From assembly GCF_001550095.1 (NCBI RefSeq), contig NZ_LRUC01000018.1, forward strand, positions 124,001-188,000: a stretch of 64,000 nucleotides of DNA, written 5' to 3'. The notes below the pieces were generated by a model that was not told the origin of the DNA, made no database searches, and saw nothing but the letters and a program-made list of their open reading frames with translations. The position numbers were made by a program, and so were the translations under genes. Positions 10,347-11,353 of the stretch are shown one piece after another. The first letter of the stretch is position 1; each line of letters opens with the position of its first letter. Source of the stretch: Celeribacter ethanolicus (lineage in GTDB: Bacteria > Pseudomonadota > Alphaproteobacteria > Rhodobacterales > Rhodobacteraceae).

Positions 10347-10700
10347 ACGTCTTCCTTTCCGCCACGTCTCATGGTCTGACCCTTTACCCCGAAATAGGCC
10401 CTTTGCTGACCCTTTTCCACAGCGGTTTGACGCTCCCGGTCCGAAACCTGCCCCCAAAGGTGAAAATAGGTCAGTATTGGTCATGCATTTTCTGCATAGC
10501 GGCATTGCCGACAGGGCGGATTGTGCATTCGCAGCAATTCCCCGATATTGAAATCAACGAAAGCAGCCGAGGCTTGCACCCTTGATCGCTCCAAAGCGGT
10601 TTGCCTCCCGAAAGGAGGCGTTGGCAAAACGCCAGCGAGGACGAGACACGGCAGCGCAGGTCGCGGGGGGTCCCGCACGCACATCTAAGGTTGAAAGCTT
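10347..10700 (+). promoter_or_regulatory. Divergent intergenic region with candidate stress promoter and leader hairpin for the DUF1127-sRNA transcript
   Basis: A candidate RpoH-type promoter is TTGTG at 10521-10525 and CCCCGATAT at 10540-10548, resembling the CTTGAA / CCCCATnT heat-shock pattern with 14-15 bases between; the -35 match is weak. Downstream in the presumed leader is a hairpin GCCTCC-cgaaa-GGAGGC at 10604-10620. Its 3' arm GGAGG is complementary to the CCUCC core of the hairpin loops later in the same transcript. An ATGCA-ttttc-TGCAT dyad near 10484-10498 may be another site. No gene is supported here. Confidence 0.4.
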
Positions 10701-10916
10701 ATGGCTTACGCAAACGACATCGACAGTGCCGCTCCGGCGTCCCCCACCCTCTTCGGTGGGCTGTTCAAATCCATCGCGGAACGCGTTGCGCGCTACCGGG
10801 TCTACCGTGAGACCGTGCTTGAGCTGTCGGACCTGAAGGATCGCGACCTCGCCGATCTCGGATTGTCCCGCGCGTCGATCCGGGCCGTGGCCTACGAAGC
10901 CGCTTACGGCAACTGA
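10701..10916 (+). CDS. DUF1127 (YjiS-like) small protein upstream of the cuckoo sRNA array
   Basis: A 71-residue protein. The C-terminal half (about 30-68) has the DUF1127 pattern, an Arg-rich helix RVARYRVYRETVLELSDL then DRDLADLGLSRASI. In Rhodobacter sphaeroides the gene in the same place, before the CcsR sRNAs, encodes the DUF1127 protein CcaF1, reported to bind RNA and affect sRNA maturation; this gene is the positional and family counterpart. The ribosome site is weak (AAGGTTGAAAGCTT before ATG). The array begins about 10 bases after its stop, which fits processing from one mRNA. Confidence 0.9.
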   Translation: MAYANDIDSAAPASPTLFGGLFKSIAERVARYRVYRETVLELSDLKDRDLADLGLSRASIRAVAYEAAYGN

Positions 10917-10925
10917 AGAATAGAC

Positions 10926-10958
10926 ATCACGGCCCTCTCCTCCTCCCTGGGCCCTGAT
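10926..10958 (+). ncRNA. Cuckoo/CcsR-like sRNA hairpin 1
   Basis: Stem ATCA-C-GGCCC paired with GGGCC-C-TGAT, loop holding CTCCTCCTCCCT. First of eight units; begins 10 bases after the DUF1127 stop. The CCUCCUCCC loop is the defining motif of the cuckoo family and is complementary to Shine-Dalgarno sequences. Confidence 0.85.
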
Positions 10959-10961
10959 ACC

Positions 10962-10998
10962 TGCGGCAGCTCCTCTCCTCCTCCCTGGGGCTGCCGCA
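10962..10998 (+). ncRNA. Cuckoo/CcsR-like sRNA hairpin 2
   Basis: Perfect 9-bp stem TGCGGCAGC/GCTGCCGCA enclosing a longer 19-base loop with CTCCTCCTCCCT. The stem sequence is unrelated to unit 1 while the loop is identical, so the loop is the conserved part. Confidence 0.85.
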
Positions 10999-11010
10999 TC
11001 AGATACCGGA

Positions 11011-11043
11011 ATTCGGGGCCTCTCCTCCTCCCTTGGCCCTGAT
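11011..11043 (+). ncRNA. Cuckoo/CcsR-like sRNA hairpin 3
   Basis: Stem GGGGCC (11015-11020) with GGCCCT (11035-11040), loop TCTCCTCCTCCCTT. The flank TGAT after the stem resembles that of unit 1, suggesting units 1 and 3 are duplicates. Confidence 0.82.
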
Positions 11044-11050
11044 GACCAGA

Positions 11051-11082
11051 GCGGCGATGCTTCCTCCTCCCTGCATCGTCGC
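11051..11082 (+). ncRNA. Cuckoo/CcsR-like sRNA hairpin 4
   Basis: Ten-bp stem GCGGCGATGC/GCATCGTCGC with one G-U pair, loop TTCCTCCTCCCT. A small GNRA-type hairpin GGGC-gaaa-GCCC follows at 11092-11103 and separates units 4 and 5. Confidence 0.85.
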
Positions 11083-11110
11083 ACCTATACCGGGCGAAAG
11101 CCCAAGAAAT

Positions 11111-11141
11111 CGGTCCCTCTCTCCTCCTCCCTGAGGGGTCG
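11111..11141 (+). ncRNA. Cuckoo/CcsR-like sRNA hairpin 5
   Basis: Nine-bp stem CGGTCCCTC/GAGGGGTCG with two G-U pairs, loop TCTCCTCCTCCCT. The compensating wobble pairs argue that the fold is maintained. Confidence 0.83.
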
Positions 11142-11150
11142 TGACTGAAG

Positions 11151-11184
11151 GCGGCGGTGCCTTCCTCCTCCCTGGTACCGCCGC
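11151..11184 (+). ncRNA. Cuckoo/CcsR-like sRNA hairpin 6
   Basis: Eleven-bp stem GCGGCGGTGCC/GGTACCGCCGC with one G-U pair, loop TTCCTCCTCCCT. A U-rich stretch ATTTCTTTTC follows and might cause partial termination. Confidence 0.85.
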
Positions 11185-11200
11185 ATTTCTTTTCAGAATA

Positions 11201-11229
11201 CGGGTCCTCTCCTCCTCCCTTGGGGCCCG
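11201..11229 (+). ncRNA. Cuckoo/CcsR-like sRNA hairpin 7
   Basis: Seven-bp stem CGGGTCC/GGGCCCG with one G-U pair, loop TCTCCTCCTCCCTTG. The stem is the weakest of the array but the loop is intact. Confidence 0.8.
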
Positions 11230-11238
11230 ATACCAAGA

Positions 11239-11285
11239 GACACCCGTGCCCCTCCTCCTCCCTGGGCGCGGGTGTCTTGCTTTTT
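11239..11285 (+). ncRNA. Cuckoo/CcsR-like sRNA hairpin 8, doubling as the transcript terminator
   Basis: Thirteen-bp stem GACACCCGTGCCC/GGGCGCGGGTGTC with one G-U pair, loop CTCCTCCTCCCT, followed by TTGCTTTTT. The last unit therefore carries the intrinsic terminator of the whole DUF1127-array transcript. Confidence 0.88.
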
Positions 11286-11353
11286 ACCGATCAGACATCA
11301 GAAACTTTGAGCAGCCTCCTCCGGCTGGGGAAACGCGCAAGGCAATCACCGGC

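Follow-up and report, generated by a model that had tools for sequence, protein, structure and literature searches.

The eight hairpins with a common loop that span positions 10926-11278 on the forward strand of the window (the whole 64-kb stretch of DNA analysed here) very probably belong to the ccaF1-CcsR operon of Celeribacter, in which a stress promoter would drive the synthesis of a DUF1127 protein and of four tandem two-hairpin sRNAs with anti-Shine-Dalgarno action. The repeat unit of the array is the two-hairpin dyad, and the array is a normal CcsR cluster with the published number of sRNAs, of a kind already known and frequent in the family Rhodobacteraceae; it is not enlarged, and no new mechanism is needed for it. 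The main value of the analysis is a correction, namely that hairpins are not to be equated with sRNAs and that the unit is the dyad; in addition, a box upstream of the promoter core provides a lead worth testing.

The array and its repeat unit

The region contains the following features:
10484-10507, forward strand: LysR-type-like box, TGCA-N6-GCAT (10484-10497) overlapping the VtlR-motif-like TGCATAGCGGCATTG (10493-10507)
10521-10549, forward strand: RpoH-like core promoter, TTGTGCATTCGCAGCA (10521-10536) then CCCCGATATT (10540-10549)
10603-10619, forward strand: leader hairpin GCCTCC-cgaaa-GGAGGC, recognised from sequence, within what is presumably the 5' UTR of the DUF1127 gene
10701-10916, forward strand: CcaF1-like DUF1127 gene, 71 aa (PF06568, E 1.6e-11)
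10924-11002, forward strand: dyad 1, CcsR1-like (RF02791, 43.6 bits, E 3.8e-9), hairpins 10926-10958 and 10962-10998
11009-11087, forward strand: dyad 2 (RF02791, 33.8 bits, E 2.9e-6), hairpins 11008-11047 and 11051-11082
11092-11103, forward strand: GGGC-GAAA-GCCC spacer hairpin between dyads 2 and 3 (hairpin units 4 and 5); 0/200 shuffles fold as well
11106-11189, forward strand: dyad 3 (RF02791, 37.3 bits, E 2.6e-7), hairpins about 11111-11141 and 11151-11184
11190-11280, forward strand: dyad 4 (RF02791, 25.8 bits, E 6.9e-4), hairpins 11201-11229 and 11237-11278
11237-11285, forward strand: Rho-independent terminator, the unit 8 hairpin then a T run, from sequence and fold

The motif CCTCCTCCC is present in eight exact copies in the window, all on the forward strand (10939, 10977, 11024, 11063, 11123, 11164, 11211 and 11254), with no exact copy on either strand of the rest of the 64 kb and none in the other 360-base stretches of the window (20-base steps, both strands). 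Shuffling the array region 2000 times yields at most one copy per shuffle. The RNA from 10917 to 11285 folds at -168.5 kcal/mol, compared with -126.0 +/- 5.9 kcal/mol for 100 shuffles (z -7.2, no shuffle as low). Motif scan and fold bear out the initial description in the sequence-only reading, i.e. eight hairpins, each with a CCTCCTCCC loop, directly 3' of a DUF1127 gene, and its claim of a single terminator also holds, as hairpin 8 and the T run form the only terminator of the array. Open reading frames overlap the array on both strands, but a protein-coding reading was rejected given that the conserved features are the loops and the pairing. Just 3' of the terminator, at 11315-11323, a one-mismatch CCTCCTCCG lies within CAGCC-TCCTCC-GGCTG; it was excluded from the unit count and is perhaps a decayed ninth unit. 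The array region is also duplicated on another contig of the assembly (G000:C48:245000-248500, L039), where it is identical to the window in 3501/3501 bases compared, this second copy being probably an assembly duplicate.

Consecutive loops of the window array are separated by steps of 38, 47, 39, 60, 41, 47 and 43 nt, and a strict alternation of short and longer steps (32-45 and 40-95 nt, respectively) is observed in 30 of the 41 arrays studied. Alternation is not strict in the other 11, and the array of genome G208 repeats in threes. The second hairpin of the dyad is the more stable one in 119 of the 135 dyads of the 30 alternating arrays (mean -24.9 versus -18.9 kcal/mol). The Rfam CcsR1 model RF02791 (83 nt, two hairpins) gives four full-length tandem matches in the window, placed end to end and scoring 25.8-43.6 bits, all below the gathering score of 65.3; at the gathering threshold, the Rfam search of the window returns two tRNAs only and no CcsR match. 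The behaviour of the same model in G094, one of 394 family genomes, identified as Rhodobacter sphaeroides-like by a photosynthetic L subunit 100 % identical over 281 aa and by its RF02791 score, is informative in this respect. Its locus (L042) encodes a 71-aa DUF1127 protein followed by seven dyads (14 hairpins), the last five of which are nearly identical tandem copies, and then by a terminator hairpin that lacks the motif. The first dyad reaches 106 bits and the remaining six, at 39-47 bits, stay under the gathering score; since only one of the seven passes 65.3, this cut-off does not separate members.

The three-hairpin alpha-r14 model RF02344 also gives three tandem matches in the window (51.7, 42.2 and 34.2 bits; cut-off 58.8), the best of which exceeds the best RF02791 match in bits while having a weaker E-value (2.5e-8). 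As CcsR1 and alpha-r14 share their loops, Rfam scores alone cannot choose between the families, a choice that is made by the dyad spacing and the DUF1127 gene. Each unit of the window array consists of two adjacent hairpins, both with a CCUCCUCCC loop, and the array lies directly 3' of a short DUF1127 gene, as is characteristic of CcsR. The earlier assignment to the cuckoo (CcsR) family with its DUF1127 partner gene was thereby confirmed, the Rfam covariance check that was run giving the four tandem sub-gathering matches.

The initial claim that the array is expanded was not upheld. Every CcsR is said to possess two stem-loops, as reported of the work of Billenkamp et al. in 2015. The published account of R. 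sphaeroides, in the parts available, reports that four CcsR RNAs are co-transcribed with ccaF1 (PMC10253847), and RSs0680a (CcsR1) is described with two CCUCCUCCC stem-loops (PMC3927594, section 2.7), so that 'four' in this species counted sRNAs and not hairpins. The statement that R. sphaeroides has four is correct for the published CcsR sRNAs and provides no measure of hairpins, yet the eight hairpins of the window, which form four dyads, had been set against it. The alternating dyad spacing, the four tandem RF02791 matches and the two-hairpin RSs0680a indicate a four-sRNA cluster like the published CcsR1-4. With either four or seven dyads, R. sphaeroides has no fewer hairpins than the window, and an expanded array is ruled out by the two-hairpin RSs0680a, the seven-dyad R. 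sphaeroides-like locus and the four RF02791 matches. Seven dyads in the R. sphaeroides-like genome stand beside four CcsR RNAs in print.

Conservation of stems, spacers and gene order

All eight hairpins form in 11/11 eight-unit orthologues folded. On the alignment of such orthologues, 92.0 % of cells are paired and nine pairs (22 cells) are changed on both sides, values reached by none of 500 shuffles, and controls in which the structure was slid give 1-4 two-sided-change pairs against nine for the true structure. A measure of 'further pair types' performs no better than shuffles (422/500 reach the alignment value), and unit 8, partly misaligned, is 71.8 % paired. As related sequences inflate covariation counts, these counts are taken as support and not as a probability. 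The stems thus vary yet keep pairing, as in CcsR RNAs and as the first reading of the sequence had asserted. All 427 loop anchors form hairpins under a lenient local fold, including one weak extra anchor past the window terminator, and loops with CCTCCC only were left out of the unit counts.

Short G+C hairpins are often found between dyads and recur at dyad boundaries in other genera. In the 30 strictly alternating arrays, every inter-dyad spacer that is 20 nt or longer, the window spacer included, folds at -3 kcal/mol or lower (64/64), and 46 of the 64 rank in the best 5 % of shuffles; the intra-dyad spacers, of at most 8 nt, are too short for a hairpin or a comparison. In the genus of the window, where 24 boundaries reach 20 nt, 22 rank in the best 5 %, and four of the 24 carry a CCTCCC-type hairpin in place of the plain spacer hairpin. 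Folded singly, relatives have GGGC-GAAA-GCCC, GGGGC-CUC-GCCCC or GGAGC-...-GCUCC, among others, at the position of the window spacer, and covariation of the spacer hairpin is suggested by sequence comparison; on the alignment its helix (helix 6) shows 90.9 % paired cells and no two-sided change. In R. sphaeroides, the CcsR precursor is described as undergoing RNase E cleavage and PNPase trimming, which makes a role of the hairpin at 11092-11103 in processing plausible by analogy. Such a role had been proposed from the start; it agrees with the location of the hairpin, at a dyad boundary and recurrent elsewhere, and the support extends as far as this location. The coincidence of recurrent spacer hairpins with the sites of expected processing provides a testable point.

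The DUF1127 protein of the window and the 71-aa protein encoded by the R. sphaeroides-like locus share 41 % identity over 70 aa, and an NCBIfam search with two DUF1127 proteins gave no match. An open reading frame with a DUF1127-like sequence pattern is located just 5' of the array in 42/42 arrays. Mrp homology is found further 5' in 35 of 42 loci, some loci being short at that end; mrp is divergent to the DUF1127 gene. In the presumed leader of the window gene, the hairpin at 10603-10619 pairs CCTCC with GGAGG. A DUF1127 gene of Sinorhizobium meliloti is described as being under leader attenuation (PMC12218461, seen in part), and a relation of the window hairpin to such attenuation is a guess.

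A search with the DUF1127 protein identified three named loci (in Celeribacter persicus, C. baekdonensis and Celeribacter sp. PS-C1), in each of which the gene is followed by an array of eight hairpins. Of 394 family genomes, 334 (333/393 genera) match a two-loop pattern, the reversed control of which also matches in some genomes, up to eight times in one. The arrays range from two hairpins, in plasmid-borne single dyads, to 26, and the excerpted published accounts give 2-4 hairpins per RNA (PMC4504443). The largest arrays read are those of G208 (26 hairpins), G342 (20) and G150 (17), followed by four with 14-15. The G208 array (L031, G208:C1:334000-336800) consists of 26 CTCCTCC-loop hairpins, largely in a near-identical three-hairpin cassette of ~140 bp. 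The window's genus contributes 19 of 42 loci to the promoter set and 18 of 41 to the hairpin set, the rest being partly genomes with many matches, and this non-random choice leads to over-representation of large arrays. G006 (L022, with its array cut by a contig end) and L001-L003, L007, L010, L018, L023, L025 and L027-L029 were left out of the counts, these last loci in part because they are not the chosen array.

The promoter core and the upstream box

The core element ATTGTGCANNYGCAG is present in 39 of 42 upstream regions and in 0/8400 shuffled upstreams. The C- and AT-rich stretch that follows it is similar to the -10 portion of the RpoH1 consensus of S. meliloti, given in part of the literature as CTTGAA-N16-CCTATAT. 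A variant of the core lies directly before seven of eight solitary dyads without DUF1127, those seven (L063-L065 and L067-L070) being on contigs of 53-130 kb, and this occurrence in front of solitary dyads supports the identification of the core as a promoter. Single dyads without DUF1127 were also noted behind a core variant on plasmid pP88_d of Phaeobacter inhibens P88, plasmid p3 of Paracoccus albus and plasmid unnamed4 of Ruegeria sp. SCSIO 43209 (L246-L248); all three plasmids are typed as mobilizable, the dyad is just 5' of a gene annotated as a strawberry notch-like NTP hydrolase, and the core is more changed on the Ruegeria plasmid than on the other two. The same core precedes a 52-aa gene, DUF1127-like by eye, in G208 (L084, G208:C1). 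A scan of viral contigs with the two-hairpin pattern (87 stretches) revealed no core promoter among the 80 listed.

The element that looks new from the sequence comparison is a conserved LysR-type-like box upstream of the core. A 15-mer with at most three mismatches from the published VtlR motif CAATGCAGCCATGCA (PMC12595884, in part) is found in 41 of 42 loci, including two without an exact TTGTGC, and the 15-mer of the window differs at two of 15 positions; the controls gave 4/840 for shuffled upstreams and 5/1260 for scrambled motifs. The element TGC-N7-GCA (mostly TGCA-N6-GCA) begins 36-37 nt 5' of the core in 41/42 loci, and the combined pattern of box and core occurs in 225 of 394 family genomes, with no match for the reversed control. 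A LysR-type motif upstream of the core is what characterizes promoters regulated by VtlR or LsrB (motifs from the available parts of PMC12595884 and PMC10746234). In the literature collection, which is incomplete and provides no proof of novelty, none of the matches listed mentions CcsR together with VtlR, LsrB or LysR; among those listed for CcaF1 with LsrB or LysR, one paper contains these names, LsrB standing in its reference list.

A candidate regulator was sought through trxB, to which the VtlR gene is linked in Brucella (PMC12595884, in part). A looser LysR sequence pattern detected a LysR-like gene in nine of 11 class loci around trxB, a strict one giving no match there. Synteny with trxB was abandoned as a route to the Rhodobacteraceae gene, no LysR neighbour being seen there, and a homology search with the LysR protein of a class relative was used instead. 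It found in 6/6 Rhodobacteraceae genomes one protein per genome that is 50-52 % identical to the trxB-linked LysR protein, with any second match far behind; the label 'LsrB/VtlR-like' follows from the trxB linkage of the query, as in Brucella, and not from named LsrB or VtlR sequences.

There is about an even chance, judging from these sequence patterns, that the DUF1127-CcsR operon is under dual control across Rhodobacteraceae, by an RpoH-type core and by a VtlR/LsrB-type LysR regulator acting at the box that begins 27-37 nt 5' of the -35-like TTGTGC. In that case, a single ancestral LysR circuit would serve DUF1127 proteins and anti-Shine-Dalgarno sRNAs in Rhizobiales and Rhodobacterales, solitary CcsR dyads on mobilizable plasmids would be under a version of the core, and the box would tie CcsR to the VtlR/LsrB circuit. 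Only slightly less probable is that the promoter is recognized by RpoH only and that the TGCA-N6-GCAT/VtlR-like block serves another end, for example the divergent mrp gene or a different factor. For RSP_6037/RSs0680a of R. sphaeroides, the excerpts available indeed report transcription from an RpoHI/II promoter, the block is flanked by two divergent genes, and the seven solitary plasmid dyads with a core have no TGC-N7-GCA box (0/7). Likewise in line with RpoH alone, the A. tumefaciens form of the motif, given in a partly available source as GCAT-N3-TG-N3-T, has no exact match in the block, and no LysR gene was seen beside trxB when open reading frame translations of two Rhodobacteraceae genomes were inspected by eye. 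Against it stand the clear homologue of the trxB-linked LysR protein in all six genomes and the fixed spacing between block and core, the VtlR-like block starting 27-28 nt 5' of TTGTGC in 40/40 loci with TTGTGC (in one case with five mismatches).

Proposed function and related systems

We infer that a single transcript would start from the stress promoter near 10521-10549, encode the 71-aa DUF1127 protein and extend through the four sRNAs up to the terminator. On the model of R. sphaeroides, RNase E, aided by the DUF1127 protein, would cut the inter-dyad spacers, giving rise to four sRNAs of ~80 nt. Each CCUCCUCCC loop would pair with the Shine-Dalgarno sequence (AGGGAGGAGG-like) of numerous mRNAs for metabolism and transport, and this pairing would lower translation of the targets under oxidative or heat stress, with the four units providing redundancy and dose. 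In the genome of the window, the pattern GGGAGGA-N3-13-ATG occurs 170 times, compared with 18 for the reversed pattern; the 170 sites include copies on a duplicated contig, repeated elements and the antisense strand of the array itself. Among 16 loci examined, ten genes carry AGGGAGGAG before the start codon, which Pfam assigns to two periplasmic binding proteins, a SoxA/TsdA-type cytochrome, a sulphur transporter, two FAD-binding proteins, a fumarylacetoacetate hydrolase, two ABM monooxygenases and a TadE protein. As a prediction only, these targets agree with the broad metabolic targeting in relatives.

The long multi-target sponge initially proposed, taken here as one uncut eight-hairpin RNA titrating many mRNAs, or a protein, at once, is improbable, notwithstanding the eight identical loops within one predicted transcript with one terminator and the very long arrays found elsewhere (26 hairpins in G208), because the dyad spacing, a two-hairpin model that matches four times in tandem and the recurrent spacer hairpins argue for separate units, and because the R. 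sphaeroides relatives are described in the accessible portions of the literature as cut into separate sRNAs by RNase E, with an RpoHI/II promoter and a role for CcaF1 (PMC10253847, PMC8625941, PMC7866481). The hairpins might instead act mainly in cis, stabilizing or terminating the DUF1127 mRNA with incidental loops, which would fit the position of the array right after the DUF1127 stop codon (in 39 of 42 loci, 19-30 nt separate the stop from the first loop anchor) and the terminator at its end; such a role is highly unlikely, as the loop sequence is kept while the stems change and as solitary plasmid dyads without DUF1127 lie behind a promoter-like core. The preferred reading is hence the operon with four processed sRNAs.

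The closest known system is CcsR1-4/RSs0680a-d with ccaF1 of R. sphaeroides (RF02791; cuckoo RNA, CIN1 locus), for which Hfq association and mRNA targets have been published, as far as the available parts of the reports go. This locus shares with the window the 71-aa DUF1127 gene, the tandem two-hairpin CCUCCUCCC units, the terminator, the Mrp gene upstream, the RpoH-like core and the gene order. The window has four dyads, whereas the R. sphaeroides-like genome has seven, and its terminator is itself an anti-Shine-Dalgarno hairpin in place of a separate motif-less one; in addition, a hairpin-bearing spacer that is 20 nt or longer occurs in the window only between dyads 2 and 3.

The alpha-r14/NfeR1 RNAs of Rhizobiales (SmelA075, SmelA099; RF02344) also carry CCUCCUCCC loops on divergent stems, with proposed blocking of ribosome-binding sites, and the anti-Shine-Dalgarno loops of S. 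meliloti NfeR1 silence mRNAs according to the available part of PMC10746234, which also places an LsrB site, TGCA-N6-GCAT, at -72 to -60 of NfeR1. They differ in having three or four hairpins and, for NfeR1, its own sigma-70 promoter; identity of the array with such a stand-alone three-hairpin sRNA was rejected, as it is organized in dyads behind a DUF1127 gene and its best match to the alpha-r14 model, 51.7 bits, is below the gathering score of 58.8. The VtlR/LsrB regulons of Brucella, Agrobacterium and Sinorhizobium resemble the proposed circuit in the LysR-type control, described in partly available sources, of DUF1127 genes and anti-Shine-Dalgarno sRNAs (AbcR, NfeR1) through similar motifs, and differ from the window in that here the LysR link is a prediction from sequence.
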